Assembly (NCBI RefSeq): GCF_000004825.1
Contig: NW_008805100.1
Coordinates: forward strand, 246,238-310,237
DNA: 64,000 nt
Direction of reading: 5' to 3'
From: Heterostelium album PN500
Lineage: Eukaryota > Evosea > Eumycetozoa > Acytosteliales > Acytosteliaceae
The translations under genes and the position numbers were made by a program. Within the stretch, counting starts at the first letter, position 1; the number at the start of each line of letters is the position of its first letter. Shown piece by piece: positions 4,806 through 60,930 of the stretch. A model generated the notes under the pieces. It had not been told where the DNA came from. It saw nothing but the letters and a program-made list of their open reading frames with translations, and ran no database searches.

Positions 4806-7752
4806 ATGAATACAAATACAAATAGAATCGAGAAAACAAATAGATTAATCAATGGAAAGAATGTCTTGGAATTTAGAAGTTATGAATCTATATTTGATGA
4901 AGATCTAATAGTTTTAGTTCATAATCATTTGAAAGATAAAGATAATGAACAACACACAAATATCATATTAATCAGAAATACTAAAACTAATGATGAGATA
5001 GTAGTTCCAGATACAGTCGATACTCAATATCAATTTATAATAATCTTTCCATATTCACCCTTAAATCTATCGATACTTTTAAACAAATCAGAATCATACA
5101 CAATCAATATTCAAAAAAGTCAATTCAAAGACACGTTTGACTATTTCAAACAAAGACACATCATTAATAACAAACAATATCATTCAATATCAAGATTTAC
5201 AAACAGTAATGATATCAATGATGTATATTTAGTGTGTGGTACTGATGAAAAAAGATTGGTAAGATCATTTTTCAAAGTAATTAATCAATTGACAATCATA
5301 AAACTAACAAAATCAATTCAAAAGTATGTTTATAAAAAGATAAACTATAAAGGTAAAGATAATCAGAAATCTTATGAAAGAACTGAGAATGAAATCAAAT
5401 CAATGAAATTACTCAAAGGTAATCGAAGATTTGTTCAACTTGTTGACTATCATCATGATAAAGACAATCAAATCTTTCATATCATCACTGATTATTGTTA
5501 TGGTGGTGATCTTACTCAAAAGTATAAACATTTAACTGATCATAATCTGTAAGAATAAAAAATAAAATTCTAATACAATCGAGATATTGATTTAACTTTC
5601 ATATTGAACATAAAAATAGGATCTTTAAAGAATCAGATATTAGCGAATATATTCGACAACTTTTCAATATTCTTTTGGATCTTGATAAACATGGAATTGT
5701 TCATTGTGATATCAAACCATCAAATATATTCATTGGTAAATATGGTACTTTGATTCTTGGTGATTTTGGATGTTGTAAATTCATTGATCAATCAACAATC
5801 ATTGAATATCAAGATTCAAAAGTATATCTTGAACAACCTGTTGTCATAACAAGTGTTTCGAATTCGAAAGAAATATCAGATCCAACTATCGATATAGATC
5901 CAAACACACTTATAAATGCAACTCGTGGAACACCTGGTTATATTGCACCAGTAAGTAAATTCTGATTAAATTAAATATATTTTTTAACTTATTCCATAAA
6001 ATAATAATACAATTAGGAAGCAATGAACAGACAATATGCACAATCATGTGACATCTTTTCAATTGGATCAACAATTCTCAAATTATTATGTTGGTAAATA
6101 CTCGAATAATCATTTTTTTAAAATATTATTATCAATCAGATATTAACTCTGTATTTTTGAATATTTAAATTTATCAGTCATCAAGATGATCGAAATAATC
6201 ATGATTTATTCAAATTAAATAGTGAAATTAAGATTTCAGAATGTAGATATTCAAAACAATTGATTGAATTTATTCATCGATTGTTGGATCAGAGTCCAAA
6301 GAATAGAGAATCATTGAATCAATTATTAAACCAATATATTGAAACCATCACCAATCAACATTTAATTACATTCAATTTAAATACTACATTCAAAAACACC
6401 TCAGTAAATATCACTGAAATCAAATTTGGTGATGGATTTAATCAACCTTTGGAATCTAATTCACTCCCTCCAAATCTGAAATCATTATCATTTGGATATT
6501 CTTTCAATCAAATATTATCAGTTGGTGTGTTACCTGAATCACTGCAATCATTGGAGTTTGGATATTCATTCAATCAAATATTATCAGTTGGTGTGTTACC
6601 TAAATCACTGACATCATTGAAGTTTGGAAGGGAATTTAATCAAATATTATCAGTTGGTGTGTTACCTCAATCACTGAAATCATTGGAGTTTGGTGATAAA
6701 TTCAATCAAATATTATCAGTTGGTGTGTTACATGAATCACTGAAATCATTATCATTTGGATATTCATTCAAACAAATATTATCAGTTGGTGTCTTACCTA
6801 AATCACTTGAATCATTGGTGTTTGGAAATGAATTCAATAAAATATTATCAGTTGGTGTGTTACCTGAATCACTGAAATCATTGGTGTTTGGTGGTAAATT
6901 CAATCAAATATTATCAGTTGGTGTCTTACCTAAATCACTTGAATCATTGAAGTTTGGATATGAATTCAATCAAATATTATCAGTTGGTGTCTTACCTGAA
7001 TCACTGAAATCATTGGTGTTTGGAAATGAATTCAATCAAATATTATCAGTTGGTGTTTTACCTAAATCACTTGAATCATTGAAGTTTGGAAATGGATTCA
7101 ATCAAATATTATCAGTTGGTGTGTTACCTGAATCACTTGAATCATTGGTGTTTGGATTTAAAATCAATCAAAATTTATCAAAAGGTGAGTTAGTCGAATC
7201 ACATATCTTAAAAAAATTGTTAATAATGTAAAAATTATAGGTTATCAATATAGAATTGAGAGAGAAGTTCTACCACAACATCTTAAAGAGATAGATTTCG
7301 GTTTACATGATCAACCATTGGATATTGGAGTATTACCACAATCTCTACAACATTTAAAACTTAGGTCTTATAAACACATGATTGGCATTGGTGTTCTTCC
7401 ATCATCACTCAAAATCATATCAATTTTTAGTCAATTTGGAGAATCTAAAACAAATACCTCGTTACCAAAATCAATTTCATCACTCGTTATTGGTGGATAT
7501 CATAAAGATTTAAAGAATCAAAGCACATTTCTTTCAAATCTAAATATTCTTGAAATTAATGATTGTGGTCAGCAAAAATTTGAAGCATTGATATTAACCA
7601 ATTCTCAAGATTCACTTGAATTTATAAAAGAATTCTATCCAATGTATTATTCAGATAACGATTTATGGAAGATCAGAGACTCCTATATTTCTTCTCAGTA
7701 CATTCTCAAAGGAGAATACATCACTGCTCTACTTTTATCACTATGGAATTAA
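4806..7752 (+). CDS. FNIP-repeat protein kinase, copy A
   Basis: Six exons are inferred: 4806-5258, 5325-5548, 5620-5950, 6017-6093, 6178-7184 and 7241-7752. They join in frame to 867 residues. After a family-specific N-terminal domain (about 1-130) comes a protein kinase domain: VYLVCGT as the glycine-loop strand, catalytic Lys in YVYKK (about 155), HCDIKPSN (about 253; HRD is HCD here) and DFGCCKF (about 271). The activation segment ends in GTPGYIAPEA across the third intron. From about residue 449 come at least eleven 22-residue FNIP repeats (FNQILSVGVLPESLKSL...), then a divergent C-terminal region. FNIP repeats are leucine-rich-repeat-like and probably bind a partner; the substrate is unknown. 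I chose the Met at 4806 because copies B and C also begin MNTN. All joins keep frame, so this looks like the intact family member. Confidence 0.85.
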
Positions 7753-8411: not shown

Positions 8412-8429
8412 TAGTAATCAACAATACAA

Positions 8430-9033
8430 AAATGTATTGTGCGATTGACTCTTCCTCTTATAGAATCAAAAAACCGTCTCAAAGCCATTCATATGAAAAA
8501 CAATTTTTTTCTGTTGAACATAATTTCCATTGCATAAAGATAGAGTCGGCAGTCTGCATCGATGATGGAACAATAATATGGGTTGCTCCATGTAATATTT
8601 ATTTAATTAACTTATCAATCACGAATATTATTTTATTAGCATCAATCCATATTTAGATTATGCTATAGGTACAGTTCATGATCTTACTATGGCACGGGAG
8701 TCAGGTGTAATGAATCCTGATACATTCAAGCTTGCTGAAGGAGAACGTATTTTGGCAGATCTTGGATATGTGGGTGAACCTGAAGTGTTTATGACTCCAC
8801 AGAAAGGAGATTCAGCAGATTTATCTATTTTAGAAAATGCATTAAATAGTCTCAAGCACAGATTCAGAACAATTATTGAGAATCTGTATGGTAGACAAAC
8901 ATCCTCTTTGGCCATCCTCAGAACTGCCTACAGAGGAGATATTGACGATTTTGGTGAGATCTTGCAAATTATTTATTGGGTTACCGCTTTTTTGTTACAA
9001 GAAAATCCTCTCAGAAAAAAAAGAAAAATTTAA
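8430..9033 (+). mobile_element. PIF/Harbinger-type (DDE_Tnp_4) transposase, 5'-truncated
   Basis: The plus strand shows the catalytic core of a Harbinger-like nuclease in the expected order. These are AIDSSSYRI (first Asp), FHCIKIE with DGTIIWVAP, then TVHDLTMAR (second Asp), ILADLGYVGEPEVF (third acidic position) and the RTIIENLYGR helix. It ends ENPLRKKRKI and TAA at 9031-9033. An AT-rich insert at about 8592-8668 has GT and AG ends, and removing it joins WVAPC to TVHDL in frame, so it is probably an intron. The N-terminal part is missing and the start abuts the mariner fragment. Probably dead; no terminal repeats were seen. Confidence 0.75.
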
Positions 9034-12252: not shown

Positions 12253-15200
12253 TTATTTATTGAGAGTTGTTGTTATTACAATAATTAATAGTAAAGCTGT
12301 AAGGATAAAGTTGAATGATAATTGATTAGATGAGTTTATATCAGTGGTTGTAGCTCCGGTAGTTGTAGCTCCGGTGGTTGTAGTTCCAGTGGTGGTCGTT
12401 GTTACAGTGGTTGTAGTTCCTGAAGTTGTAGTTGGAGTTTGTTCAGAACAATCAGAACCTTGATACCCTTGGTCACATTGACAAACGGCAACAGTATAAT
12501 TACATTGACCATGAGATGAACAATCATTTAAACATGGTTTTGTGTAATATGATAGTGTGTAGTTGCTGTAATCAGCTAGTCCTGAAACTGAAACAAAAAT
12601 TGATATTGGATTAACTGTTGTGTTGGCGTTGATCTTTGGTGTAAGAGTACATGTTGCATTTCTTGTGTTGACTTGTGTCACATTGCACACTTCATTATTG
12701 ATCTTCCAAACAAAGTCTATATCGATAAAGTTGTTACCAAAGATAGTAAATATCGTTTCATTGTTTTCGAAATAGACCTTTGGGTTTACATTGACGATGC
12801 TTGGATATACATAATTGGTATTAACATAGTTTGAAGTTTTGTTGTTTGTCGATACAAGAGCCGATTCGGAGTGAACTTGGAATCTACCAGCTCCCATTGG
12901 CACGGTACATATCATTCTAGCTGGATAATTGTTCTCGTCGATGCTGTTGCATTTGATAGTAGCGTTACCGGCATAGATGGTATTGTATCGAAGGAAGTAT
13001 CCTATAACGAGAATGGGTCCTCCTGTCACTGGTGCTATAGCTGAAATAGGTAGTATAGTTGGTTGTAAATTCAAATAAAGTGGATCTACTGTTTGTTGTG
13101 TATCGACAAATATGTTATAGATATTGGTGATAATTGTATTGGGCAGTATGGCTATTAGTTGTGTATTGTTTACTGAAAGAAAGGTGAAGTTAAAGTTGAT
13201 ATTGTTATTGTTGGTTACTGATAAAAGAGAGCTGGAGATACCGAAATCGCTTCCTTCGATTGTGATTACATTGGTTTCTGTTTGATTTTGTGTGAACGAT
13301 ATGACAGTTGGTCTGTTGTAGCTGAATGACAAGGCATTGGAAAAGACTTCACGTTGATAACTGTAGGCACGAATATCTTTTCTGGAAACTATACCCGATG
13401 GTGTAGTAAATGAAATTTCGTTCATGCTCAGCACATCAGCCAATATCTCAATGTCTCCAAAATAGATTTTCTGTTTTGTTGGACCAGGGTTCGATTGGAA
13501 AAAGTCACCGGTAATTTGAAGTGAGCTCTGACTGGTGCTTATCAAACTTTGATTTACTGATATTAAATATGGGATGAGATAGATGATATTGTTATAGATG
13601 GTTTGAGAAGTGAGAGTTTGAACAAGAAGTTGGCTACTCTGGGAACCTGGAGGAACGGTAATGAGTAATGAAGTGGTAGTTGTACTGTATTCCGACAGCT
13701 TGGTACCACCAAAAGAGACTTGGAGATACACCTCAGGATACATGTTGGTTGCGTTTACTGTGATGATATTGTTTGTTTGAGAATAGTCACCAAGAGTGGG
13801 TGTTATGAAATTGATAAAACTCGCCGGGGCGGATTGATAGGAATTGAATGAGACTAAAACAGTACATATTGTGTATGGACTCACATTGGCGGTGGTTCCG
13901 TTAAAATCAAGAGAACAAGATACACTGTTAGTGGAATAGAACTGCATATCTGTACAATTGACTCCACAAACGGTTATCAGATAGTTGGGAGTATCGACAA
14001 AGTTTGAACCAACGATAGCGATTGTCGAGTTTCCTATGAAGGGGATTAGCGGTGTACCTCCAGTGACAACAGGCGACGGTACTGAGCAATCATTGGAATT
14101 CCAGGATGGGTAGCACGTACATACACCAGTATCACATTGACCATGATTTGAACATTGGTTTGGACAAAGATTGTTGTAACTCATTGAGTAAATCTGTCCT
14201 GAGGAAGAGGCAACGCTGACTATATGCAAATCGGTATCGAGACCAACTGAATAAGAGTAGGAATTAAGTGTTGAAGGTTGAATTTGTTCATCTGAGATTT
14301 TTACAACACTGGGGTTTATTCCTGTGTTGGTAATGGTAGCCAATGCCAACTTTGATTGTTTATCTGCAATCGAGATGAATAGTTGAGCGTAACTGGTGTC
14401 AAAGTTCATATTTAAACAGAGGCTTGCATCGCTTGTCAGGTTGAAAACATCGTGTTGATTGGTAACACAATTGATTCTTTCGATGTATGCTCCATTGCTA
14501 TCGGTGGTACAGGTGTATAGGTAAAAATTGGAAGCTACTGCTGTCATTGACGATGTTTTCACAAGTGTGTAACTATTAAGGACCGAGAATCCAGTAGTTG
14601 AATATTGGACAACCTTTCCACGAGCTGATATATAAAGAAAGTTTTGTTGCCTGTCATAGACCATAAAACCGATATCTTCATTTCCTGGGAATGTAGTCTG
14701 TCTCTGTACTGTTTGAAGAGAGTTTGCATTATACATTTGTGTATTGGAGTTGTAGGACCAAGGAGTCAGCAATATGCTCATTAATTGGGCACCACCTGGA
14801 AAAACAGTATAGAGAGTATAGTAGGTACCACCAATGTCAAGCCATCTTAGAACTGGATTGTTCATCATCCATGAAGCAAAAGATTCCATCGATGAAGATG
14901 CTGAATTACTTCCTATTTGCTGGGCAAGACATATTTTCGATGAAGATGAACGAGTGTAGATATTTGGTGATGATAAAAATACGGCAATGGCTTGAGAGGA
15001 ACAGTCTTCTGGTCCATTTACAATTGGAAACAATGAACTGGTTATCGAATCGTTACTCAACGGATTGGTATTGTCGGCTGATCGAAATCCAAGAAGTCTA
15101 TAATCATTCGTTTGAACAATAAAGTTCTTTTGTTTTGGTGTGTTGTAATCTGGAGCGAATTCAGCTCTAATAATTCCACTAATCACTGTATTTGAGTTAT

Positions 15201-15300
15201 CTTTCAAAGTCTTGGTATAAACTGTGCCAAAGATTTGTCCGTCTATAACTTGAATTGAAATTACTAGAAAAATAGCAAATAATATTAATTTTATTAACAT
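12253..15300 (-). CDS. IPT/TIG- and EGF-domain cell-surface protein
   Basis: A single-exon gene of 1,015 residues. I start it at 15300 because MLIKLILFAIFLVISIQVIDG is an ideal signal peptide; an ATG further upstream would place a poorly fitting 34-residue leader in front. The N-terminal third is a secreted domain with no family I can name. An EGF-like module (CPNQCSNHGQCDTGVCTC) follows at about 400-430, then several IPT/TIG-like beta-sandwich repeats (VVTGGTPLIPF and similar). A second EGF module (CLNDCSSHGQC) and a Thr-rich stalk come next. The protein ends in a hydrophobic tail (FNFILTALLLIIVITTTL) with no cytoplasmic basic stop, suggesting a GPI anchor. The layout resembles dictyostelid Tgr-type and related adhesion or recognition proteins, but no ligand can be assigned. 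Confidence 0.8.
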   Translation of the reverse strand: MLIKLILFAIFLVISIQVIDGQIFGTVYTKTLKDNSNTVISGIIRAEFAPDYNTPKQKNFIVQTNDYRLLGFRSADNTNPLSNDSITSSLFPIVNGPEDCSSQAIAVFLSSPNIYTRSSSSKICLAQQIGSNSASSSMESFASWMMNNPVLRWLDIGGTYYTLYTVFPGGAQLMSILLTPWSYNSNTQMYNANSLQTVQRQTTFPGNEDIGFMVYDRQQNFLYISARGKVVQYSTTGFSVLNSYTLVKTSSMTAVASNFYLYTCTTDSNGAYIERINCVTNQHDVFNLTSDASLCLNMNFDTSYAQLFISIADKQSKLALATITNTGINPSVVKISDEQIQPSTLNSYSYSVGLDTDLHIVSVASSSGQIYSMSYNNLCPNQCSNHGQCDTGVCTCYPSWNSNDCSVPSPVVTGGTPLIPFIGNSTIAIVGSNFVDTPNYLITVCGVNCTDMQFYSTNSVSCSLDFNGTTANVSPYTICTVLVSFNSYQSAPASFINFITPTLGDYSQTNNIITVNATNMYPEVYLQVSFGGTKLSEYSTTTTSLLITVPPGSQSSQLLVQTLTSQTIYNNIIYLIPYLISVNQSLISTSQSSLQITGDFFQSNPGPTKQKIYFGDIEILADVLSMNEISFTTPSGIVSRKDIRAYSYQREVFSNALSFSYNRPTVISFTQNQTETNVITIEGSDFGISSSLLSVTNNNNINFNFTFLSVNNTQLIAILPNTIITNIYNIFVDTQQTVDPLYLNLQPTILPISAIAPVTGGPILVIGYFLRYNTIYAGNATIKCNSIDENNYPARMICTVPMGAGRFQVHSESALVSTNNKTSNYVNTNYVYPSIVNVNPKVYFENNETIFTIFGNNFIDIDFVWKINNEVCNVTQVNTRNATCTLTPKINANTTVNPISIFVSVSGLADYSNYTLSYYTKPCLNDCSSHGQCNYTVAVCQCDQGYQGSDCSEQTPTTTSGTTTTVTTTTTGTTTTGATTTGATTTDINSSNQLSFNFILTALLLIIVITTTLNK

Positions 15301-15506
15301 TTTTCTATCTATTTGTTTATAAACGATTATTAATAGTGAAAAAACCAAGGTAATTACCTTTAAGACTTTATGAAGCCAAAAATAAATATTTAATCGCAAC
15401 AAAAAAAGTGGTTATAAACATGTTTTATTGGGCTAAATCTCTTCATCAATTTATCTAAATCTAAATATCTTTGTACAAGGGGGTGCTGATGTTTAAAACT
15501 TTGAAA

Positions 15507-15694: not shown

Positions 15695-15805
15695 CTTGTT
15701 ACAAAATTAATAGGAAAGCTGAAAGGATAACGTTGAATGAAAATTGATTGGATGAGGATAGATCAGTGGTTGTAGTTCCAGTCGTCGGTGTTGGAGTACT
15801 ATCTA
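15695..15805 (-). pseudogene. Stray copy of the surface-protein 3' end
   Basis: The minus strand reads a Thr-rich segment, then DLSSSNQFSFNVILSAFLLIL and a stop. This parallels the C-terminal DINSSNQLSFNFILTALLLII of the gene at 12253-15300, and the DNA is also clearly alignable with 12283-12400. Only the stalk and anchor region remain. It is the tail of a deleted tandem paralogue. Confidence 0.75.
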
Positions 15806-16313
15806 TTATACACATACTTTTGTATTGATTTTTTTTAGTTATAGGATTGTCAATCGATTAATTTGATTTCAAACTAGTCTTACCATTTAAACTATTACAG
15901 TTTGTAAATCCTGTTAGTGATTGATTATAGATAATTCTTTTAATTTTGATTTATTATTTGTGAATGATACAAATTATATAATAGTATAGTATGTATTACA
16001 TTTGTAATATCAATATGATTTTTTGTGTAGTTCATCATCTTTATCTTTCAAATGAACATAAATTACAAATCGATTAAGTATATATCAATTCTAAATTTCA
16101 CTGTAATTTGATAATTTGTAAAGTCTATTTTAAAATAAATAGATGATAAAATAAACTAACAAACTTGTACTGCATAAAAATTATTCATTTGCAAATGAAC
16201 GTTACCTGTTTTATTTTTTTTGTTCAACTTTGAATTAATATTAATATTAATAGTTGTCTTTAATTAAATTCAACCTTTTGATCTTTTCTTTTTCTCTTCT
16301 TATTGTTTTACTG
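15806..16313. other. AT-rich spacer
   Basis: No gene is seen. The stretch separates the surface-protein tail fragment from the 3' end of the DnaJ gene. It contains one GTTACCT motif near 16201. Confidence 0.4.
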
Positions 16314-18707: not shown

Positions 18708-21406
18708 TTAAGTTAAAAGTAGAGCTATGATGTATTCTCCTTTGATTTGATTGCTTTGAGAATCAGTGGTGGAATCACTGATATTGAATAAATTATGTGT
18801 TGAATAATATTCTGGATAGAATTCTTTGATAAATGAAAGTGAATCTTGAGAATTTGTCAATTGAAATGCAGATATTGTTTGTCTAATGCCAAGTTTAATT
18901 TCAATCATTTTTAGATTTGGAGGTAATTTATATAACTTCTTTGAGTCTTTATGATACCCATCAATACTGAGCAATTCCATTGGTTTCGGTAAAACTATTC
19001 CATATCCGGTATTAGTTGGAGGTTGATCAAAAATAAGCGATAATCTTTTAAGCGATGATGGAAGAACAATGTCAATAATATGTTCATGAGAACCAAGATA
19101 AAAATGTTCAAGAGATCTTGGTAATACCCTATATCCAATGGGCGATCAAGTATATTAAAATATACCTCTTTAAGATGTGGTGGTAGAATATCTCTCTCAA
19201 TTCTATGGTAGTATCCTATCATTTTTAATGATTTCAGTGATTTAGGTAACACACCAACTGATAATATTTGATTGAATCCAAATCCAAACTCCAACGATTC
19301 CAAATATTCAGGTAACACACCAACTGATAATATTTGATTGAATTCACGACCAAACTTTAATGATTCAAGTGATTCAGGGAATACACCGACTGATAATATT
19401 TGATTGAATTCATTTCCAAACTTCAATGATTTCAGTGATTCAGGTAACACACCGACTGATAATATTTGATTGAATCTATTTCCAAACTCTAACAACTCTA
19501 GAGATTCAGGTAACACACCGACTGATAATATTTGATTGAATGAGTTTCCTAATAGCTTTAATGATAAAAGAGAGGATGGTAATGTTCCAGGTTCTAAAAT
19601 TTGATTAAAAGACCAAACAAATGATAAATGTTTGAGTGATTTTGGAAGTACACCGTTAGGTATTGGTTGATTGAATTTAATTACAAATGATAATGATGTC
19701 AGATTTGGAGGGAGTGAATTCGATTCCAAAGGTTGATTAAAATCGTGACCAAACTTGATTTCAGTGACAAATTCAGAGGTATTATAAAAAGTAGTATTTA
19801 AATTGAATGTAATTGAATGTTGATTGGTGATGGTTTCAATATATTGGTTTAATAATTGATTCAATGATTCTCTATTCTTTGGACTCTGATCCAACAATCG
19901 ATGAATAAATTCAATCAATTGTTTTGAATATCTGAATTCTGAAATCTTAATTTCACCAGTTGATTGGAATAGTTGATGATTATTTCGATCATCTTGATGA
20001 CTGATCAATTTAAATATTCAAAAATACAGAGTTAATATCTGATTGATAATAATATTTTAAAAGTATGATTATTCGAGTATTTACCAACATAATAATTTGA
20101 GTAGAGTAGATCCAATCGAAAAGATGTCACATGATTGTGCATATTGTCTGTTCATTGCTTCCTTTAATTGGAATAAAGTTAATAATATAATACTTTTATT
20201 AATGGAGGAGAATTTACTTACAGGTGAAATATAATTGTTCCACGAGTTGCTTTTATAAGCGTGTTTGATTCCATATCAAAAATGGATGGTTCTGATAATT
20301 CAGTAACGGTCGGTTCTGATATTTCATTTTCGATAAATTTCAAATTCGAAGTATTTGATACCATAACAGGTGGATCAAGAATGTGTTCTTTTCTATCTTG
20401 ATATTCAATGATTGTTGATTTATCAATGAATTTACAACATCCAAAATCACCAAGCATTAAGGTACTATCAATTCTACCATCACCAATAAAAATATTTGAT
20501 GGTTTGATATCACAATGAACAATTCCATGTTTATCAAGATCCAAAAGAATATTGAAAAGTTGTGAAATATATTTATAAATTTCTGATTCTTTAAAGATTC
20601 TATTTTTATTGTATTAATATCTCCATAAAGGTTATGTATATTTTATAACTAACTTACTCATTTTGATCAATTAAATATTTATACTCTTGAGCAAGATCAC
20701 CACTAACACAATATTTAGTGATGATATGAAAGATTTGATTGTCTTTATCATCTTGATAATCATAAAGTTGAACAAATCTTGGATTATTGATGAATAATTC
20801 CATTGCTTTGATTTCATTCAGTACTCTTTCATAGTTTTCTTGATTTCTTTTATAGTTTATCTTTTATAAACATACTTTTGATTTTGTTAGTTTTATGATT
20901 GTAAATTGATTTGATATCTAAATGATCTTACCAATCTTTGAGCATCAGTACCACACACTAAATATACATCATTGATATTATTACTGTTTGTAAATCTTGA
21001 TATTGAATGATATCGATTGTCATTAATGATATGTGTTTGTTGGAAATAATTAAGATTGTCTTTGAATAGACTCTCTTGAATATCGACTGTGTATGATTGT
21101 GATTTCTTTAATAACGCTGGGTATAGATATTGATAAGGGATATGATCTTATTATTATTAATTGATATTCAGTATCGACTGTATCTGGTACTACTATCTCT
21201 TTATTCTTTCTCTCAATATTTCCTATTAATATGATATTTCTGTGTTGTTCATTATCTTGATCTTTTAATGGGTTATAAACTAAAACGACGTATTTATCAA
21301 TTGGAAGTTTATCACCGATAAATTTCAAAACATTCTTTCCATTGATTAATCTATCAGTTTCCTCTATATTTTTATTAGTTATCTCATTATTATTATTTGT
21401 ATTCAT
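18708..21406 (-). pseudogene. FNIP-repeat protein kinase, copy B (frameshifted)
   Basis: This has the same architecture as copy A: N-terminal domain from 21406 (MNTNNNNEITNK), kinase segment with HCDIKPSN and DFGCCKF, about eight FNIP repeats at about 19250-19760, and the C-terminal region ending at 18708. Against its paralogues at least four indels break the frame: near 21125 (before the LLKKSQSYTVDI equivalent), near 20868 (one A lost after YVYK), near 20235 (4 bp lost in the GTPGYISP segment) and near 19128 (one base lost, GGAGTA to GGGTA). Exon and intron positions are otherwise conserved. Its FNIP repeats are fewer and more diverged, which fits an older, decaying copy. Confidence 0.8.
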
Positions 21407-37095: not shown

Positions 37096-37137
<42 letters not shown>

Positions 37138-41817: not shown

Positions 41818-41944
41818 AAATATCATAATTATTAGATACTTTTATTGGTTACTTTGTTAGAGAGTTGTTTTTACACATTAATATATATCAATAATATAAA
41901 GTGTTATAATAGATATATCTTTTTTTATATTATTATGATCTTAT

Positions 41945-48387: not shown

Positions 48388-50594
48388 TTAAAATTTATCA
48401 ATCTCTTGAACTTGACCACCAGAATAGATCTTGACCATCGATAAATCATGTTGTGATTGTTGTGAAACCACTTTCTTTGGTTGACTCTTCCTCTTGTATA
48501 AAACAACGAATATAATGATCGATATCAACACAACACCACCAATGATTGGTCCAATGATGACACCAACATTTCTCTTTGAATCTTTATCATCTTTATCTGA
48601 TGAATTGTTCGATATTCCTGTTGTTGTCATTGTAATACCTGTTGTTGAGCCAACTGTTGTAGATCCACCGTTTGTTGTTGTTGTTGTTGTTGTTGAACCA
48701 CCATCAGTCGTAGGAGTACCACCTGTTGTTGATGTTGTTGTTGTCGAAGTAGATGTTGTTGAAATGTCTGTTGTTGTTGTTGTGGTTGTTGTTGACGAAG
48801 CTTCATCTTTGATATTGATATAAAATGGTTGTTGTGATCCAAGTGCTTCTCCAATGATAGTGATTGATGTGTTGGTTGTACTGTTCAATGAAACGAATGG
48901 TAATAGATCTCCAATTGGTGCTGAAATGGAGTCATTCGAATATACAATGATTTCACTTGATGATAATCTTACATAATTATAATGATTGTTGTTTGGTTCA
49001 TTCAAATATAGAATATCATTGATTGATGCTTCTGAAACTTTCAATTTGATTCTTAAAATTGGACATGGTCCAACATCTTGAAATGTAAAGTTGTTGAAAA
49101 CTTTATAATTGTGTTCTGGTGAATAGTTGAGTGTTGTATTTTGATTGTCGATTGAAATTGAATAATATTTAGATCCATACATTCCATACATATTTGGGAG
49201 ATAGTAAGACAATATATCTAGAATTCCATCATTGTTAAAATCACCATAGGTGAAATGACTAAATGTATTTAATATAAATCCATTACATTGATTAATTGTG
49301 CTTGGAGTTACACTCATAGTGAGTGGTAATGAATAGGCTCCAAATACCGACCAAACATTATTACCAGCACATGTTAGATCATCTAAACCATCTCCATTGA
49401 TATCTTTGAGAATTGCATTTAAACAAAGGTTATAAGAACTACCCATGGAGAGAATGGAACCTTTTGAACTTTCATTCAAATAACTTATTGCATTAAACTG
49501 AGCGGGGAAACTATCGACTCCATATATCAAGTAAACATAATTAATTGAACCTCCTTTAAAAGATAATGAAATATCATTTTTTCCATCACCATTGAAATCA
49601 CCAACACTATTTGCTGCATTTCCTGAAGTGAGTATAGAATATCCAGGAAAGGTTATTTTAAAACCATCTTGACCGTCGAAAGAAGGTGTATATACAGATC
49701 CCGAAACCGAAAAACTCTTTGATCCATACACTATTTGAAGATATGTATGACCAATATCACCCATCATATCTAATATTCCATCGTTGTTAATATCACCCAA
49801 GATTAAGCTCCATTGATTAGAACTAATACTGAATCCATTTACTCCATTGACATATGATGCTAAATCAAGTATTCCGTTTGTGGATGAATATTTTCCACTT
49901 TGGAGACCATAGATCACATAAGTAACTCCAGTTCCTGTAGAACCTGTGGCACCTAAAAATAAAACAAAAAAAACAAAAAATTAATATGAAATTTTTCATT
50001 ATTTTAATATTTTATATCGTTTTGAAACATACCAATAGATGATCCAAAAATCAAATCAGATATACCATCTCCATTGATATCACCAATTTGTCTGATGTAT
50101 CCAAGTGCTTGAGTAGTACCAGCTTCACCCTTATAATAGAATCCTCTGACTCCATCAAAGTATGTGTTATCAATTGTACCTGGAGATAGATTCTTGTCAC
50201 CATAAATGACATACAAAGTACCAGATGAAGGATTCATTGAACAGATTGCAAGATCAGGATATCCATCATTGTTTATATCTCCACAAACTGGTATCAGATT
50301 GTTGATAAGAATTGGAAGTACAATTGAATTTGTATTATTTGGTGGGGTGTTGAATTGTTTAATTGGTCCAAACATTATGTATGTTGTTCCGCTTACTTCG
50401 ATAATGACATCTATATATCCATCTCCATTCATATCACAACTAGTTGTACCAAAAAGTGTTCCTGAAGAATATATAAATCCATTGGTTTCATTTACTTGTT
50501 GATAAGTTGATGGAAAAAAAGCTAATACTCCATTCCTATTTATACACATAAAATAAATAATAATAAATTTTAAATTAAATAAATATTTATACAT
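48388..50594 (-). CDS. FG-GAP repeat single-pass membrane protein
   Basis: Two exons, 50033-50594 and 48388-49952 (GTATGT donor, TTTAG acceptor), give 708 residues. A hydrophobic N-terminus (YLFNLKFIIIYFMC) serves as signal peptide. The ectodomain has several FG-GAP/VCBS calcium-binding loops (CDMNGDGYIDVI, GDINNDGYPDLAI, GDINGDGISDLIF, GDINNDGILDMM, GDFNGDGKNDI, GDFNNDGILDIL), as in integrin alpha beta-propellers. A Thr/Ser-rich stalk, a transmembrane helix (VGVIIGPIIGGVVLISIIIF) and a roughly 35-residue basic cytoplasmic tail follow. Probably a surface adhesion or sensing receptor; no ligand can be assigned. No frameshift seen. Confidence 0.83.
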
Positions 50595-51434
50595 TATTTA
50601 TTATTATTTATTTATTTTTTCGAAAAAATTTAAAAAAAAAGAATAAAAAAAAATCAAAAACTTTTAAAAGTTATAGATAGACCATACCGTTGTCGATTAA
50701 TTAATTAATCAAAATTAAAAATAAATATTTCTATCTTTTTTTTTTTTTGGTGCAACTCAAAGAAAAATAAAAAAAAGGTTACCACCTCACTGCTTGTTAA
50801 CCTGTGAAATGACTTTTATTTTGGATCTAAAAAATAAAATAAAAAATCTGTGGGAGTGGTGTGTGAAAACTTTGACGAATTTTAACAATAATATGTCGTT
50901 TAGTGATTCCTCGCAAGAACTCAAAATTGATCTCATTATAATAAACAAAAAACAAATCTAAAAAAAAAAAAAAAAAAAAATCTGTTGCTCTTTTGGATGT
51001 TCTACAAGTAAATAATAATATTTATTCATTCATAAATCAAAATAGAATAAGATTCTTCCATTTTATTTTGTCTTTGATATTGCTGTGTACCGAGTTTCTT
51101 GTCCTAAACTCAATGAACTCAAATACTTTTAAGCTTCAAAAATCAGCTATATTTAAAACAGATTTTTATGTGTACACAAAAGAAATACTCCTACATTACC
51201 ATATAAATTCATAAATTAAAAATTTGCACTCAATTGTTATTTTATTCATTATTATCATCTTTATAATATTTGTACTCAAAGAAATCATCAACATTTTTGC
51301 AGTTATTATAATTATTTTTGTGATTTGTGCATATTATTTTGAAAAACGTCTTTCATTGGATGATTTTAACTTTAGTAATTCATTTTATTGTTTTTCAATC
51401 AATCATGACTGTGGTGACTTGAACTTTTAAATAA
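50595..51434. other. Spacer between FG-GAP gene and glycogen phosphorylase
   Basis: AT-rich. It contains A19-21 runs near 50960 and a small G/C patch with GGTTACC and GTTAACC at 50778-50812 that may belong to the FG-GAP promoter. Two plus-strand ORFs here are too AT-biased to be credible. Confidence 0.45.
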
Positions 51435-54400
51435 TTATTTTGATGAAGGGACATTGAATCCTTTGACAGTTTGTTTTGGTACGTTGTCTTGACCGACTCT
51501 CAATGAGGGGTGTGACGATGGGTGTGGATTTCTTGAGCCGGTTGGTGTCATCGGTGAGAGACGTTCCATTGAGATCATAGGATTGTTGAGCGAATCGAAT
51601 GGACTGCCAACCGGTGACTTTGTAATGGTTTTAATCTCTTCGGTGGAGATTGGCATTGGACCTGGTCTACGACACTGCTGGATATGCCAAATCGATTCAG
51701 CGTACTCCTTGATGGTTCGGTCCGAGCTGAACATACCGCAGCCAGCACTGGCCAGAATTGACATCTTGGCCCATTTCGATCGGTTCTGATAGGCGAGATC
51801 GATCTGCTGTTGCGCCTCCAGGTACGAAGGGAAGTCGTAGCTGAGAATGTAGTGATCGTTGCCACCGGTTATCGAATCGATGATTGGCTGGAAGTCTTGG
51901 AGTGGACCAAACATACCTTCCTTGATGGCGGTAATCACTTGAATCCAACGACGATCGGGAACGAACGTTCCTTGGTGAATCTCCTTCTTGATTCTCTCGA
52001 CGTCCGGTGTCAGTGCACCAAAGATAAACATATTCTCATGACCGATTGCATCACGAATCTCAATGTTGGCACCGTCCAACGTACCGATGATGAGTCCACC
52101 GTTCATGGCAAACTTCATGTTGCTGGTTCCCGATGCCTCTGTTCCGGCGGTCGAGATGTGCTCGGAGATATCGGAACTGGGAATGATAATCTCGGCATTC
52201 GACACACAGTAGTTGGGAATGAAAACTACCTTGAGCATGTTGCCAACGATTGGATCGTTGTTGATGACTTTGGCAACGGCGTTGATCAGCTTTATAATGA
52301 GTTTCGCCATGTAGTAACCGGGTGCTGCTTTTCCACCAAAGATGACAACCTTTGGGTATTTGACTTTGCCCGACTTTATCTCGAGATAACGGTGAATGAC
52401 ACCGAGGATATTGAGCAACTGACGTTTGTACTCGTGGAAACGCTTCACCTGGACATCAAAGATGGCGTCGACATTGACAATGTCACCGCAGACACGCTCA
52501 ATGTACTTGGCCATACGAATCTTGTTCTCACGCTTGATGTTCATCCATTGGTCTTGGAAGGTAGTGTCGTCGGCCATATCTTTAATCTTTCGGATGATAT
52601 CCAAGTTGACAATCCAACGCGAGGTGTTCAGAGTCTTGGTGAGGAATTGACTCAGGCTCGGATTACACTCGTGAATCCAACGACGTGGTGTTACACCATT
52701 AGTTTTGTTTTGGAATTTCTCTGGCCAGAGCTCGTAAAAGTGGCGGAACACTACATCTTTGATGAGATCAGAGTGCAGCGCTGCTACACCGTTGATGGTA
52801 TGCGAGCCGACAATAGCAAGGTATGCCATTCTTATGGTACGACCACCGGATTCGTCGATGATGGACAACGAACGACGACGGTCAATATCGCCAGGCCATC
52901 TCTTCTCCACCAACTGAAGGAATCGCTCGTTGATATCATAGATAATACGTATGTGTCTCGGTAGAAGACGCTCGACCATCTCAACACTCCAACGTTCCAA
53001 CGCCTCAGGAAGTACAGTGTGATTGGTATATGAGAATGTCTTGGTTGTAATATCCCATGCTCTCTCCCAAGACATATGTTCTTCGTCGAGCAAGATTCTC
53101 ATCAACTCTGGAATGCCGAGGGTTGGATGAGTATCGTTCAACTGAATGGCATGCATCTTTGGAAACTCTGAAAAGTCACGGCCTGTATCCTTGAACTGCG
53201 AGATAATATCCTGGAGTGTGGCGGAAACAAAGAAATACTGTTGTTTCAATCTCAGTTCTTTTCCTTGAGTGGTATTGTCATTTGGGTAGAGAACATTTGT
53301 GATATTCTCACAACGCTGTTTCTCCTCGATCGAGCCGAGATAGTCACCTTTGTTGAAGGAAGTCAAGTCAAACTCGTCGGACGGTTTCGAACTCCACAAC
53401 CGGATATTGATGGTGTTGAATGTGCTGAATCCAGGGATTGGATAGTCGTATGCGATTCCCACGATCTTCTCAGCTGGATGCCAAACGAGATGCTTCTCGC
53501 CGTTCACTATCTCCTCCTCGACGACACCGCCAAACCCTACGGAATGCGAGATATCGAGACGCTCGATCTCCCAGGGCGATCCGTAGTTGAGCCAGTAGTC
53601 TGGCAGCTCCACTTGCTCGCCGTCCTGCAAGTCCTGGTAGAACATACCGTAGGTGTAACGCAGACCGTATCCACAGGCCGGATAGTCCATCGTTGCCAGC
53701 GAATCCATAAAACAAGCTGCCAAACGTCCTAGACCACCATTTCCAAGACCGGCATCATGCTCCTCATCGTAGAGATCCTCCAAGTAGAATCCCAACTCCT
53801 TCAGCGCATCTGCATACTTTCCAGTCAAACCGAGAGCAACCAGTGAATTCTGAAGTGATCTACCCAACAGGAACTCCAACGATAAGTAATTCACTTGTTT
53901 AACACCGTTCTGTTTGAAATATAACATTGTATCTTTCCATCTTTCAATTAATCTATCTTTTGTACTATGATAGTTGTTGTTAGTTATAATTTATATAATT
54001 AGTGCAATGTAATGTTTAAACATACCAAAGTGCTAATGCTTCGAATCCAGAAAAGTTGTTTGCTTCTGTTCTTGTTTGAGCAAGATTGTATTCTACATGT
54101 CTGACGAATTCACGTTGCAAAGTGAATTTATCCTCTGGCAGATAGGATGCAAGCAATGCCCATAACATAGCCAAGTTCTTCTCATCAACATCTTCATTTT
54201 CATTTACATCCTCTATTACTTTGAATGTTGGTTTCTGTGTTTTTGGTGAAGCAACAGATATCCTATTATTATGTTTATTAAATAATAAATAATGTTAAAT
54301 AAATAATAATGATACACTTAAGTGTTTGATCAAATAGATTGTAATTAATGATCACTTACTTTGGAATTGAACCATCTCTTGATGACTTTAACTTTGAATT

Positions 54401-55156: not shown

Positions 55157-56041
55157 TTATTTATTATTATTCATTATTTTAATATTGAATTGGTTAAGAA
55201 CTTCAAAGACTTGTTCTTTATTGGTTTCATGAAAAAGATCGTGACTAACTCCATTGAAGAGGTGTGATTCATATTGATTGGTCTTAATTTGATCTAAACC
55301 TTTTCTTACGAGGTCATGTGAGAGCAGGTCAATCTCACCGTGTAACCAGAGTACTTCAACATTGTCGAGATTGACTTGATCTTTAATGTCACGCAGTTTG
55401 TCAATGACATTCAAGAGTGTTTCTCTCTTGAACGGAGCGAGATGATAGAGTGGATCGTCATACATTTCCAGCTGAGCTTGCTTATCCGTAGTATAGACTT
55501 CTGCTCTTATAACCATTGGTGGAGCATCGATATCCTGCAGCTTAATAACAGCGTGTTCAGTACCAATCAACGGTCCAACTAGAACCAATCCTTCGATCTT
55601 ATTATTATCAATATTTATTGAACCATATTTATGATAATACATCACTGTTAACATTCCACCAACTGAATAACCAATGATTATAAATTTCAATGGAGTGTTG
55701 TTTTTGTTGTTGTTGTTATTTAGTTTATGATTCTCTCTTACTAGTTGAACAGCTGTATATAAATCATCTACAACACTATCGTAGTCTTTTACTAGAGTTG
55801 CTTCACCACCTGATAATCCATGTCCTGGATGATCGATTCCAAAAACAATAGCACCCCTATTGTTTTTTATAATGTTTTTTGCCAGTTCTTCATATCTTTT
55901 CATATGATCACCATAACCATGATTCATCATAACCAAACAATTACATCCACCAATTTTAATTGCTTGTTCATCATACCATTCATGATAAGCAATTAACTCA
56001 CCATCTTTACTACTCTTTATAAATTGTTGTTCATAAATCAT
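55157..56041 (-). CDS. Alpha/beta hydrolase, monoglyceride-lipase-like, copy 1
   Basis: Single exon, 294 residues, no signal peptide. The serine-hydrolase fold is clear: oxyanion segment MMNHGYGDHMKRYEELA, FGIDHPGHGLSGG, nucleophile elbow GYSVGG (GxSxG), the acid in LWLHGEIDLLS and the catalytic His in GVSHDLFHE. This is the Hydrolase_4 (serine aminopeptidase S33/monoacylglycerol lipase) arrangement, so it probably cleaves lipid esters in the cytosol; the substrate is not known. A poly-Asn insertion (about 110-117) sits in a loop before the nucleophile strand. A more GC-rich paralogue lies at 62166-63008 on the same strand. Confidence 0.86.
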   Translation of the reverse strand: MIYEQQFIKSSKDGELIAYHEWYDEQAIKIGGCNCLVMMNHGYGDHMKRYEELAKNIIKNNRGAIVFGIDHPGHGLSGGEATLVKDYDSVVDDLYTAVQLVRENHKLNNNNNKNNTPLKFIIIGYSVGGMLTVMYYHKYGSINIDNNKIEGLVLVGPLIGTEHAVIKLQDIDAPPMVIRAEVYTTDKQAQLEMYDDPLYHLAPFKRETLLNVIDKLRDIKDQVNLDNVEVLWLHGEIDLLSHDLVRKGLDQIKTNQYESHLFNGVSHDLFHETNKEQVFEVLNQFNIKIMNNNK

Positions 56042-56489
56042 TTTCTAACAACGAAGAATTAAAAAAAAACTATAAATATATATAGATAATAAATATATTT
56101 ATAAGATTTATAAGTTTTTTGTATAGTTATACTTAATATATAATAATATAATATAATATTACAACATAATAATATTATTACAAATTTATATTTAGCAGCA
56201 CTTTTTGACCTTTCAAATTTTAACAAGTAATTATCACCCACTTCATTATTACTACTATATAGTATTTTATTTTTGTTACTATATTAATTTCATTATTCAT
56301 TATTTAGTTATCTGTTTAATAGATAATTTATATTTGATATTTTAACAGTATTTCTGATTGTTTTCTTTGATTTCATTATTTAATATATATAAAAATACAA
56401 AACAAATCAAAATATATAATAGCTGGTAAAACCATTAGAGATTTCTTTGGTAGTGATAACTTGTTTTTTGGTGATCTTGATTCCAAAAA
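56042..56489. other. AT-rich spacer
   Basis: Promoter side of the hydrolase; mostly TA repeats and A/T runs. No coding signal. Confidence 0.4.
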
Positions 56490-56960
56490 AAAACAATAGG
56501 TAACGATGTTACTTTTGCAACAAATGAATAAAAAAGTAATTAAAAATAAAACTAATTAGTTTTTGCGTTGCTTTACTTTATTATTATAATAATTTATTCT
56601 ATCAGTGGTTCAGACTTTACAGATGAAAATAAGATAAATTAGAAGAGAGTGATCATCGTGTTGTTGGAGATCACAGTCAGCGTTACAGAGAACCTTGTGC
56701 TTAGAGGTATTCTTGAGATTGATTCTATTTTTCAAATACTGGTGTCGTAATTTATAAAGATGTAGATTCAGAGTTTACCAACCACTTGGAGAGTTGTAAA
56801 TAATGTGTATGTATTATTGGTGTGTATAGTGTCAGTGGTGTTGTTTTTATCAGCAAACATAGATATCAACTGTAAACTGACAGACAACTGTATACCAGAT
56901 AACTGAACAATTAAGAAATGATAGTGTTGCTTTAGACTTTAGAGATGAAAATAAGATAAA
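56490..56960. repeat. R2 distal-end copy 5
   Basis: It contains the AGGTAACG motif, the AGATGAAAATAAGATAAA stretch (twice, about 56620 and 56943) and a block matching 43425-43600 with insertions and deletions. It ends just before the Ku80 pseudogene fragment. Confidence 0.5.
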
Positions 56961-57013
56961 ATATAAATCATCTTTTATTTGACTTTTGTCATAATAAAGG
57001 ATCGACAGAGATC

Positions 57014-57812
57014 ATGGTTTCACCACCTGGTGATAAAGTTGCACGTTCAGCACTGTCGTCACTGATCCACGGAATGGCTGAAACCAAACAAGCATTACTG
57101 TCGCGTTATGTCAAGAGAAACGGAAGTTCAGCATCGATTGCATTGCTATATCCACATATCAAAGCCAACTATGAATGTCTCTATGTTTGTCAACTTCCAT
57201 TCCTTGACGATTTGAAACAATATCAATTCCCACCGATCGCACCCACCAACCCGGCAACAAGAAAACCATTCATTCCGACAGCGGAACAAGTCGATGCTAC
57301 ACGAGCACGATCGAGCACTTCATCCGGAATCACAACTTCCAAAACTCGATCCGATCATCTCGAAATATATCTCCCGATGAAGCGATTATGGAGAATGCAC
57401 AAGATGCAATAAAGAACTTCCAAACACTGTTTCCACTCACGAAAACCACCAACTTTAAATCGGAACCGAAATATCGATGGCAAGATGGAATGTTGGTCAA
57501 ACAACAACAAGAGATTCGTTTGGATTCCTATGTTACAGACGATGCCAACACATCGAAGAAGAGAAAGGCAGATGATCTTGCAGATTACTCGCTCGACAAG
57601 CTGGTTTCTGGTTACGTCAATGAAGTCGGTTCGATCAATCCAGTGCAGAACTTCAAAGATATGTTGGCAAGACGTGATATCGATCTGGTAGACAAAGCGA
57701 TATCATTAATGAAACAACGTATTGTCCACTGGTAAACGATTCACTCAAAGATCAATTCTATGGAGTGTGTTGCACTTTGTCGTGGATCTATCAAAGAATC
57801 AGAATCATTGGT
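57014..57812 (+). pseudogene. Ku80 (XRCC5) pseudogene fragment
   Basis: The DNA encodes the central-to-C-terminal part of the Ku80 subunit of the DNA-end-binding Ku heterodimer. Landmarks in order: ALSSLIHGMAETK, PHIKANYECLYVCQLPF, DDLKQYQFP, PTAEQVDA, ALHPESQLPKLDPIISKYI, PDEAIMENAQDAIKNFQTLF, then VGSINPVQNFKDML and KINSMECVALCRGSIKES. Each matches the corresponding Ku80 segment, but the frame shifts near 57300 and near 57375, and a TAA at 57733-57735 interrupts before the homology ends near 57812. The N-terminal von Willebrand-like half is absent. A functional Ku80 must lie elsewhere; this is a truncated, decayed copy. Confidence 0.85.
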
Positions 57813-58083
57813 ATTAATAATAATTTGTATTTAATATTAAAATTACTAAAAACCGTATACATTACAAGTTATTGTTAAAAAATTACATTTTAAAACTTAA
57901 ACAACCTTTTTATTTCATTTTGGGTGTGAGTAACGTTTTTTGCAAAGATAATACGATCAAATTCCGGAAAATGAAAAAAAAAAAGAGTGCTGTTTAATTT
58001 TAATAATTTCTCCAATAAAATCAAAGTTTTAGTTTAACTTGATTTTTATTTTTGAAATTAATGAATTTTAAAAATACTTCAAA

Positions 58084-60930
58084 ATGAATAATATCGAGCT
58101 AACAGATAAATTAATCAATCGAAAAAATGTATTGAAATTTATTAATTTTAATTTTAAATACTATCAACAATACACAGTTTTAGTTTATAATCATTTGAAA
58201 GATAAAGATAATGAACAACACACAAATATCACATTAATTGGAAATATTAATCGAAATAATAATAATGAGATTGTAATACCAGATACTGTCGATACTCAAT
58301 ATCAATTATTAATAATATCATCAGATTCTTACGCAGTAGATTTTAAATCCATGTGTGTCGAGCTATTAAACAAATCACAATCATACACAATCAATTTTGA
58401 AAACAATCTATTCAAAAACAACCTTGACTATTTCAAACAATCTCATATCATTAATAACGAACGATATCATTCAATATCAAGATTTACAAACAGTAATGAT
58501 ATCAATGATGTATATTTAGTGGGTGGTACTGATGATCATAAATCTTTTTATAAAAGATTGGTAAGATCATTTTTCAATGTAATTAATCAATTGACAATTA
58601 TAAAACTAACAAAATCAATTCAAAAGTATGTTTATAAAAAGATAAACTATAAAGATGATCAGAAATCTTATGAAAGAGCTGAGAATGAAATCAAAGCAAT
58701 GAAATTACTCAAAGGTAATCGAAGATTTGTTCAACTTGTTGACTATCATCATGATAAAGGCAATCAAATCTTTCATATCATCACTGAATATTGTAAAGGT
58801 GGTGATCTTTCTCAAAAGTATAAACATGTAACTGATCAAAATGAGTATATATCAAATATTTAATATAATTGACTTTTATCAAGCAATTAACCACTTTTAT
58901 ATTGAACATAAAAATAGAATCTTTAAAGAATCAGATATCAGTAATTTTATTTCACAACTTTTCAATATTCTTTTGGATCTTGATAAACATGGAATTGTTC
59001 ATTGTGACATTAAACCATCAAATATATTCATTGATGAATTTTTTACTTATGGTACTTTGATTCTTGGTGATTTTGGATGTTGTAAATTCATTGATAAATC
59101 AACAATCATTGAATATCAAGATACTAAAGAACATACTCTTGAAACAAATGATTTTAATTTAAAAACTATCGATCATGAAATATCGGAGCCAACCACTTTT
59201 TCATACATAAATGCAACACGTGGAACACCTGGTTATATTTCACCAGTAATTAAATTTTATTTATTTGATTTTCAATATAATTTTAACTTATTTAAAATAA
59301 TAACAAATAGGAAGCAATGAACAGACAATATGCACAATCATGTGACATCTTTTCAATTGGATCAACAATACTCAAATTATTATGTTGGTAAATACTCGAA
59401 TAATCATACTTTTAAAATATTATTATCAATCAGATATTAACTCTGTATTTTTGAATATTTAAATTGATCAGTCATCAAGATGATCGAAATAATCATCAAC
59501 TATTCCAAACTAAACGTGAAATTAAGATTTCAGAATTCAGATATTCAAAACAATTGATTGAATTTATTCACCGATTGTTGGATCAGAGTCCAAAGAATAG
59601 AGAATCATTGAATCAATTATTAAACCAATATATTGAAACTATCACCAATAATCAGATAATTACATTCAATTTAAATACTCCATTTCATAATACCTCCGTC
59701 AATGTCACTGAGATCAATTTTGGAAATGAATTCAATCAAATATTATCAATCGGTGTCTTACCTGAATCACTGAAATCATTGGTGTTTGGAAATAAATTCA
59801 ATCAAATATTATCAGTTGGTGTATTACCTGAATCACTGCAATCATTGGTGTTTGGATATGAATTCAATCAAATATTATCAGTTGGTGTGTTACCTGAATC
59901 ACTTGAATCATTGGTGTTTGGATATGAATTCAATCAAATATTATCAGTTGGTGTCTTACCTGAATCACTGAAATCATTGGTGTTTGGAATTGAATTCAAT
60001 CAAATATTATCAGTTGGTGTTTTACCTGAATCACTGCAATCATTGGTGTTTGGATATGAATTCAATCAAATATTATCAATCGGTGTGTTACCTGAATCAC
60101 TGAAATCATTGGTGTTTGGTTGTGAATTCAATCAAATATTATCAGTTGGTGTTTTACCTGAATCACTGCAATCATTGGTGTTTAAATTTAAATTCAATCA
60201 AATTATACCAAAAGGTGTGTTACCTGAATCACTGAAATCATTGGTGTTTGGAATTGAATTCAATCAAATATTATCAGTTGGTGTATTACCTGAATCACTT
60301 GAATCATTGGTGTTTGGATATTTCTTCAATCAAATATTATCAGTTGGTGTGTTACCTGAATCACTGAAATCATTGGAGTTTGGAAATGAATTCAATCAAA
60401 TACTATCAGTCGGTGTGTTACCTAAATCACTGAAATCATTGAAATTTGGATATTTCTTCAATAAAATATTATCAGTCGGTGTGTTACCTGAATCACTTGA
60501 ATCATTGGTGTTTGGACATTCCTTCAATCAAATATTATCAGTCGGTGTGTTACCTGAGTCACTTGAATCATTGGTGTTTGGATATTTCTTCAACAAAATA
60601 TTATCAGTCGGTGTTTTACCTAAATCACTGAAATCATTGGTGTTTGGATATTTCTTCAATCAAATATTATCAGTTGGTGTATTACCTGAATCACTTGAAT
60701 CATTGGAGTTTGGAAATGAATTCAATCAAATACTATCAGTCGGTGTGTTACCTAAATCACTGAAATCTTTATCATTTGGAAAAGGATTCAATCAAATATT
60801 ATCAGTCGATGTCTTACCTGAATCACTGAAATCTTTATCAATGACGAACTACATCGATAGAAAAGATCTACCTCAACATATTGAAAACCTATTTATTGGA
60901 GGACAAAGAATAGATATCGAGTCATTCTAA
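58084..60930 (+). CDS. FNIP-repeat protein kinase, copy D (C-terminally shortened)
   Basis: Five exons, 58084-58560, 58627-58844, 58918-59245, 59311-59387 and 59472-60930, give 852 residues with no frame break. The kinase core is complete: VYLVGGT, YVYKKINYKD, HCDIKPSN, DFGCCKF, GTPGYISPEA. The HRD Arg is again Cys. Seventeen FNIP repeats follow from about 59730, several differing by only one or two bases per 66-bp unit. The C-terminal region of copies A and B (FIKEFYPEYY...) is missing; the protein ends LPQHIENLFIGGQRIDIESF. Conserved exon phases show it arose by duplication of the same ancestor as A and C. Substrate and partners unknown. Confidence 0.83.

Follow-up and report, generated by a model that had tools for sequence, protein, structure and literature searches.

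The distal end of contig NW_008805100.1 of Heterostelium album PN500 (here C35) carries several genes that join a protein kinase to FNIP repeats, and the locus raises the question of what such genes do and how they came to be scattered there. The window analysed is a stretch of 64,000 nucleotides (C35:246238-310237) whose end is exactly the end of the contig, and its base composition, intron style and FNIP content are consistent with a dictyostelid. All evidence comes from sequence-level analysis of this one genome (32,926,113 bases in 39 contigs, 32.9 Mb). The results suggest that the genes are probably members of a lineage-amplified family of cytosolic kinases with a diversifying, leucine-rich-repeat (LRR)-like recognition surface that works in a HET/NWD-like manner. 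The organisation and evolution of the family, as read from these sequences, are well supported; the mechanism of recognition is our best guess, and a tentative one.

The preliminary description of the window listed four FNIP-repeat kinase genes (copies A to D) and a fragment (E), and open reading frames (ORFs) together with inspection of the sequence bore out the positions and strands of all five. Fragment F was absent from that description.

4806-7752, plus strand: copy A, subfamily I; exons 4806-5258, 5325-5548, 5620-5950, 6017-6093 and 6178-7184, from spliced alignment
5259-5324, plus strand: intron 1 of A, GTAAG...ACTAAC...AAG
7185-7240, plus strand: possible fifth intron of A, with a last exon at 7241-7752, read by eye
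18711-21397, minus strand: copy B, a diverged pseudogene with 8 FNIP repeats
38626-41820, plus strand: copy C, subfamily III; exons 38626-39081, 39148-39365, 39435-39768, 39837-39913 and 39996-41475
58084-60930, plus strand: copy D, subfamily II; exons 58084-58560, 58627-58844, 58918-59245, 59311-59387 and 59472-60930
1262-1534, minus strand: fragment E, a piece of the N-terminal domain within an inverted copy of C35:197-200 kb
15799-16100, minus strand: fragment F, an N-terminal/kinase remnant

Each protein would consist of an N-terminal domain, a NEK-like non-RD kinase and a C-terminal FNIP solenoid. The assignment of these genes as FNIP kinases held: the four main repeat ORFs matched Pfam FNIP (E 2e-66 to 1e-157), the joined sequence of A matched Pkinase (E 4e-33), and the C-terminal part is made of tandem 22-residue FNIP/FGxxFN leucine-rich repeats that match PF05725 above its cut-off. 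Repeat numbers of 12, 8, 18 (plus one beyond a frameshift) and 17 were measured for A to D, close to the 11, 8, 18 and 17 given earlier. A genome search with the N-terminal domain, which the preliminary description had proposed, returned 47 places at E <= 0.001, mainly within C35:80-306 kb and C11:10-385 kb. A kinase query returned 78 places at E <= 0.001, 41 of them below E 1e-10 (40 loci, two pieces belonging to one locus), and the weaker matches were mostly other kinases. The queries for FNIP in copies A to D, for the genome search with the N-terminal domain and for fragment E included intron 1 residues (13 of 164 in the N-terminal query). From the 40 loci, 36 were taken and aligned by spliced alignment permitting introns and frameshifts; the four outside this set (C9:316 kb, C9:1425 kb, C10:1728 kb and C27:1420 kb) are more distant. 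The family thus comprises at least 36 loci genome-wide. Nineteen of these align from N-terminus through kinase to FNIP unbroken, and 17 need a frameshift or stop. The latter figure is an upper one: a single frameshift may be a sequencing error, and at some loci (two on C28, two on C2 and one on each of C39, C15 and C25) the breaks arise in part because the alignment was forced onto regions that are diverged or absent. Calculations of dN/dS, intact-only analyses and motif counts used 18 loci, the 19 unbroken ones minus C9:1651 kb.

The evidence for a diversifying surface lies in the repeat codons. A strict filter that requires FG, FN and P was applied to the 36 loci and yielded 318 repeats from 30 loci, 310 of them distinct. 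At codons 8 and 9, which lie between FG and FN, the nonsynonymous proportion (pN) was 0.546 and the synonymous proportion (pS) 0.143, giving a pN/pS of 3.82 (gene bootstrap 95% interval 2.79-5.05); the same pN divided by the pS of all codons was 2.02 (1.73-2.32). Codons other than 2, 5, 8, 9 and 21 gave a ratio of 0.35. The excess at codons 8 and 9 persisted within genes (4.9), in subfamily II (7 of 10 loci, 4.3) and in subfamily I (6 of 9 loci, 10.6), and rose to 4.98 when only the 18 intact loci (231 repeats) were used. Codon 8 ends in T in 280 of 318 repeats and codon 9 in A in 272 of 318, and the first two bases are variable; AAT occurs here 81 times and AAC never, against 710 and 175 in N-terminal and kinase exons. 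Neutral simulations (kappa about 1.4-2.1, converted from substitution counts; mean pN 0.54-0.62) gave medians of 1.08-1.35 and a maximum of 1.86, and none of 1620 reached 3.82. Tree-based counts gave a dN/dS of 3.3 at codon 8 (p = 3.5e-5), 2.2 at codon 9 (p = 0.011) and 2.5 at codon 21 (p = 0.038), and codons 14 and 16, on which the filter places no demand, had significant purifying counts. These results indicated that amino-acid change at codons 8 and 9 outpaces the neutral controls and that other codons are conserved.

Several points count against reading this pattern as a diversifying recognition surface. The filter fixes codons 6, 7, 10, 11 and 20, and it gives preference to hydrophobic residues at codons 1, 4, 18 and 19, so that conservation at all of these codons and the ratio of 0.35 are partly by construction. 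An earlier, smaller set of neutral simulations reached single values up to 2.05, correction for 22 codons leaves only codon 8 significant, and codons 2 and 5 stand near 1.1-1.2 and are non-significant. Recombination between repeats violates the assumptions of the tree, and the pairwise ratios pool repeats that are not positionally equivalent. Mosaic N-terminal/kinase histories were tried and found unsupported in approximately unbiased (AU) tests (p = 0.17, 0.20, 0.31, 0.05 and 0.31; 0.048 for one C9 pair). Median pairwise dN/dS over the 18 intact loci was 0.65 for the kinase and 0.96 for the N-terminal domain, which leaves room for drift in part of the family, and constraint is generally weak.

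The fold of the repeats suggests where the variable residues lie. A single-sequence AlphaFold2 (AF2) model of the repeats of C (mean predicted local distance difference test score, pLDDT, 67) has a pair of short strands in each repeat (repeat positions 3-6 and 9-13), which would place codons 5 and 8-9 in or beside strands. The model matched 6nyr in Foldseek (E 1e-21, 44% identity, template-modelling score 0.48), and the FNIP part as a whole finds its best match in Crov588, a giant-virus protein (phmmer E 2e-156). According to a passage of PMC9525666, variability is highest at the two residues that separate FG from FN. Because they would sit beside the short strands of each repeat, the residues at the variable codons may form a variable binding surface on the solenoid.

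The kinase domain has NEK1 and NEK2 as its nearest relatives in the PDB, and the motifs expected of a protein kinase (beta-3 Lys, alpha-C Glu, HxD, DFG and an APE-like motif) were found. All 18 audited loci carry HCD, which marks them as non-RD, together with DFG and PEA, and in one of them Q replaces K in HCDIKP. The beta-3 pattern is present in 17 of 18, the exception being copy C (PYVYKTI), and NEIK, with the alpha-C Glu, likewise in 17 of 18, the exception being C35:82 kb (NEIR). The glycine loop GxGxxG was not present in any of the 18, NxNxxN standing in its place (positioned by eye against the kinase consensus). Catalysis is therefore only predicted, and the asparagine loop is a biochemical puzzle in its own right. 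In A, C and D a simple hydropathy scan, made without a dedicated predictor, detected no 19-residue window above 1.4, and the proteins of the family are apparently cytosolic.

The N-terminal domain, of about 150 residues, is private to this kinase family. By their coordinates, long N-terminal matches in the genome adjoin kinase matches, and those without a kinase are short pieces (C11:115, 124.6-125 and 178 kb, C2:388 kb, C35:199 kb and fragment E). Among 7 members scanned there was no convincing Pfam match (two hits, each in a single member, at E 0.035 and 0.12) and no match to PDB profiles up to E 1. An AF2 model from three sequences (mean pLDDT 36.5) gave a strand-rich hint only and was otherwise unused.

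The repeat variability, the conserved catalytic motifs and the lack of a membrane-like hydrophobic segment are observed; a partner, an activity and a pathway are inferred. Binding of the partner, which could be a non-self cell, a microbial or viral protein, or a fast-changing protein of the amoeba itself, would control the activity of the kinase or of a scaffold, and the kinase under this control would then relay a signal.

Gene structure ties the copies together. Introns in phases 0, 2, 0 and 2 were found in A to D and in the 19 unbroken loci, in agreement with the shared exon phases described before; at C35:232 kb, one of the 19, the program added an extra fifth intron. The single first exon of the preliminary description did not hold, as it contains intron 1 (5259-5324 in A), whose sequence happens to form an open frame in A, C and D; this intron is mostly about 66 bp and varies in length across the family. 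Frame breaks in the first ORF were considered as marks of pseudogenes and dismissed, the breaks being intron 1. In copy A, the segment 7185-7240 is a degenerate FNIP repeat with GTGAGT...ATAG borders and internal stops, and the frame stops at 7231 if it is not spliced; it would be a new intron of 56 bases or else a break in the frame, and A is intact only if this fifth intron is real. Copy B has three frameshifts in its N-terminal and kinase part and, by reading, a tail out of frame. Copy C is truncated: it has 18 in-frame FNIP repeats, after which the frame is lost and an out-of-frame remnant of the tail extends to about 41820. Copy D, with 17 repeats, is complete and carries the C-terminus typical of subfamily II; that it is a truncated copy was ruled out, as this C-terminus recurs across the subfamily. 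Across the family, 14 of 36 loci have, as judged by eye, a frame that runs on to a C-terminus of one of two recurrent types, and the number is 15 if A is included. Fragment F has about 79-82% identity over 80-90 bp to other members, and 72% matches at C35:209 and 219 kb.

A DNA tree of the N-terminal domain, built from 32 of the 36 loci (C39, two C28 loci and C2:1685 kb lie outside it), resolved subfamily I (9 loci including A, support 100/98), subfamily II (10 loci including D, 100/100) and subfamily III (C and C11:315 kb, 100/100), with B apart. In a kinase tree of 33 of the 36 loci, subfamily II holds at 84/99, and I and III are not resolved. Although mosaic histories found no support, synonymous distance between C and six subfamily I loci is greater in the N-terminus (0.20-0.27) than in the kinase (0.06-0.09). 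At C9:1659411-1660640 the N-terminus is unlike the usual domain and the kinase is sister to that of the neighbour C9:1651 kb, a possible case of N-terminal replacement. Of the nine loci in subfamily I, six lie one after another on the same strand of C35 (196-243 kb), spaced 6.6-10.6 kb apart in a row. The four copies had been described as a dispersed local cluster of their own. That view did not survive: A, C and D fall in different subfamilies, their closest relatives lie outside the window, and the window is the edge of the C35 family region. The row and the subfamily split thus make the window the edge of a larger array together with older arrivals.

The manner of spread can be traced in the flanks of the copies.

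418-4149, no strand assigned: upstream flank of A, an inverted duplicate of C35:200000-196562
35821-38489, no strand assigned: upstream flank of C, two direct copies (35821-36879 and 37462-38489), the first holding a methyltransferase-like ORF
56926-62085, plus strand: duplication unit of D, with a Ku80-like 3' fragment (56926-57815), the gene and downstream sequence (60970-62085)

For A, positions 418-3195 match C35:200000-197191 in inverted orientation at 96.3% identity over 2.8 kb, and later blocks at 89-92% reach the adjacent gene. Pieces of a GPN-type GTPase gene (47-156 and 4158-4275) bracket this flank, and subfamily I flanks hold pieces of the same gene, located at C35:192-193 kb (PF03029, E 3e-64), which we take to be GPN3. 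Within the flank, 3818-3990 is a repeat of about 175 bp found at no fewer than 20 places on many contigs (79-98% identity), possibly a short mobile element. The D unit is about 5.16 kb long; parts of it recur at subfamily II loci on C11, C9 and C35, and a stray flank piece lies on C39. Upstream, the unit starts with a 3' piece of a Ku gene (E 1e-12 for the Ku domain; the Ku80 C-terminal domain fell under its cut-off), and truncated Ku pieces adjoin D and at least three further members of subfamily II. There are two long Ku frames in the genome. One of them, of 594 amino acids (C11:34.0-34.7 kb), is the immediate upstream neighbour of the subfamily II member at C11:33 kb, which makes this place a likely source of the unit. 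The methyltransferase-like flank of C is also found upstream of its sister at C11:315 kb. Truncated neighbour genes and retained introns argue for segmental duplication rather than retroposition, and the results indicated that the copies propagate as segmental units of DNA that bring pieces of neighbouring genes with them. Two Hydrolase_4 serine-hydrolase genes (55160-56044 and 62169-63020, minus strand) bracket the D unit, as if it had been inserted between tandem paralogues. Birth-and-death evolution, as first proposed for these genes, is borne out by the 17 broken loci, by recent inverted, tandem and dispersed duplicates and by the variable repeat number.

A different account is that the repeats select substrates for an ordinary internal signalling kinase, the copies being specialised for different cellular targets in growth or development and the variable residues reflecting subfunctionalisation and not a recognition arms race. 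Retention of the catalytic motifs in the 18 audited loci would fit this, but if the internal targets are conserved, such specialisation does not readily predict that single arrays and subfamilies each show an amino-acid excess at codons 8 and 9, nor the 17 broken loci, and we regard it as somewhat doubtful. Near-neutral decay, in which segmental duplication and slippage yield mostly drifting copies whose variability is relaxed constraint, would agree with the median dN/dS values of 0.65 and 0.96, with the broken loci and with fragments E and F. It is nevertheless unlikely, as the ratio at codons 8 and 9 lies above the neutral simulations, purifying selection at codons 14 and 16 is independent of the filter, catalytic and loop motifs are retained in the 18 audited loci, and restriction to intact loci raises the ratio instead of lowering it. 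Carriage of the gene as cargo of a mobile element would explain its dispersal on both strands and several contigs, in particular the units of about 5 kb on C11, C9 and C35 and the flank piece on C39; this is very improbable and was dismissed, given that introns are retained, that no terminal inverted repeat or target-site duplication was seen by eye at the one left and one right unit end compared, that the truncated Ku-like and methyltransferase-like neighbours are what segmental duplication would carry, and that the scanned ORFs of the window gave one weak, sub-threshold DDE match only. An assembly artefact, with collapsed or mis-joined repeats yielding apparent copies and frameshifts, might draw on possible single-base sequencing errors and on the position of the window at a contig end, but is scarcely credible when the copies differ in N-terminal type and repeat array and 310 of 318 repeats are distinct in DNA.

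Other features of the window touch the family less directly. Downstream of A, 8689-8994 gave the DDE_Tnp_4 match (E 6e-4) and is a possible remnant transposase. On the minus strand, a SPRY-SAM-kinase gene at 21976-26209 presumably resembles splA of D. discoideum, and an IPT/TIG-EGF protein (12256-15411) and an FG-GAP-repeat protein (48391-50597) are possible surface adhesion genes. Glycogen phosphorylase (E 0) is encoded at 51438-53990, also on the minus strand, and GC content is 0.465 at 52-54 kb versus about 0.28-0.32 on either side.

The diversifying LRR-like kinase family proposed here is known in outline; of most interest for specialists are the fast-changing repeat codons and the NxNxxN loop, both new here, and the duplication units whose course can be traced. 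The fnk kinases of D. discoideum combine FNIP repeats with a kinase. One sentence of PMC9525666 reports FNIP/FGxxFN LRR proteins fused to kinases in Polysphondylium pallidum; having the same Pfam FNIP repeat and the same kinase fusion, these are very probably the present family or a subset of it. What is given here beyond that statement is the gene structure, the division into subfamilies, the decay, the duplication units and the selection on the repeats. FNIP/B-box gene groups of 241, 381, 206 and 55 members in four dictyostelids are given in a passage of PMC4334915, and the kinome paper (PMC1420674) does not use the word FNIP in its main text. Literature searches found nothing on point, either among the papers listed for selection on FNIP repeats or for fnkA-E, which is weak evidence of novelty as most subscription papers lay outside the search. 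The closest solved structures to the FNIP part are Crov588 and Crov539 of CroV (PDB 6nyr and 7zal); unlike the present kinase fusions, the Crov repeat proteins appear, from a passage of PMC9525666, to be unassociated with enzymes. Two scans of IMG/VR, with a kinase piece and with an N-terminal alignment, gave no confirmed viral relatives.

By analogy, the closest working counterpart would be the NWD family of Podospora anserina. In that family, according to parts of PMC1805685, positive selection acts on four WD40 codons that flank conserved ones, the repeats are almost identical and differ in number, and some copies are pseudogenes. The present family shares near-identical repeats, variable repeat number, pseudogenes and a few selected codons flanking conserved ones; diversifying repeat codons in an otherwise conserved repeat were found here too, with codon 8 alone surviving correction and the conservation partly by construction. 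Concerted evolution of repeats within and between loci, a feature of such repertoires, is a possibility at most: repeat identity was 0.835 within a gene versus 0.795 between genes, and 4 repeats identical in DNA are common to different genes. The two differ in that HNWD/NWD proteins join a WD40 propeller to NACHT/HET and the present ones an LRR to a kinase, and several HNWD/NWD members act in incompatibility, a role that would be conjectural for the present family. Plant EFR, XA21 and FLS2 also pair an LRR with a non-RD kinase; as LRR receptor kinases, however, they are membrane receptors with extracellular LRRs, and here the kinase is NEK-like and lacks a membrane segment (none was detected in A, C and D by the hydropathy scan). 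The loop HCDIKPSN we take to resemble the catalytic loops of EFR and XA21. The preliminary description had likened these genes to recognition gene families; the amino-acid excess at the variable repeat codons lends the likeness some support, and recognition itself remains a surmise. A more specific version, for now only a tentative possibility, is a repertoire for recognition inside the cell, the amoebozoan equivalent of fungal HNWD or plant NLR genes. Dozens of cytosolic non-RD kinases would display FNIP solenoids whose exposed residues would be kept changing by non-self conflict with other clones, bacteria or giant viruses that encode the same fold.

Known repertoires of this general kind are built of near-identical repeats in fungi and of LRR immune receptors in plants and animals. 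If the same signature is true of the present family, these social amoeba kinases would offer a tractable microbial system for determining what such a surface binds, and would suggest a reason for the dozens of FNIP repeats encoded by giant viruses of protists, repeats that may act as decoys or mimics of a host sensor.

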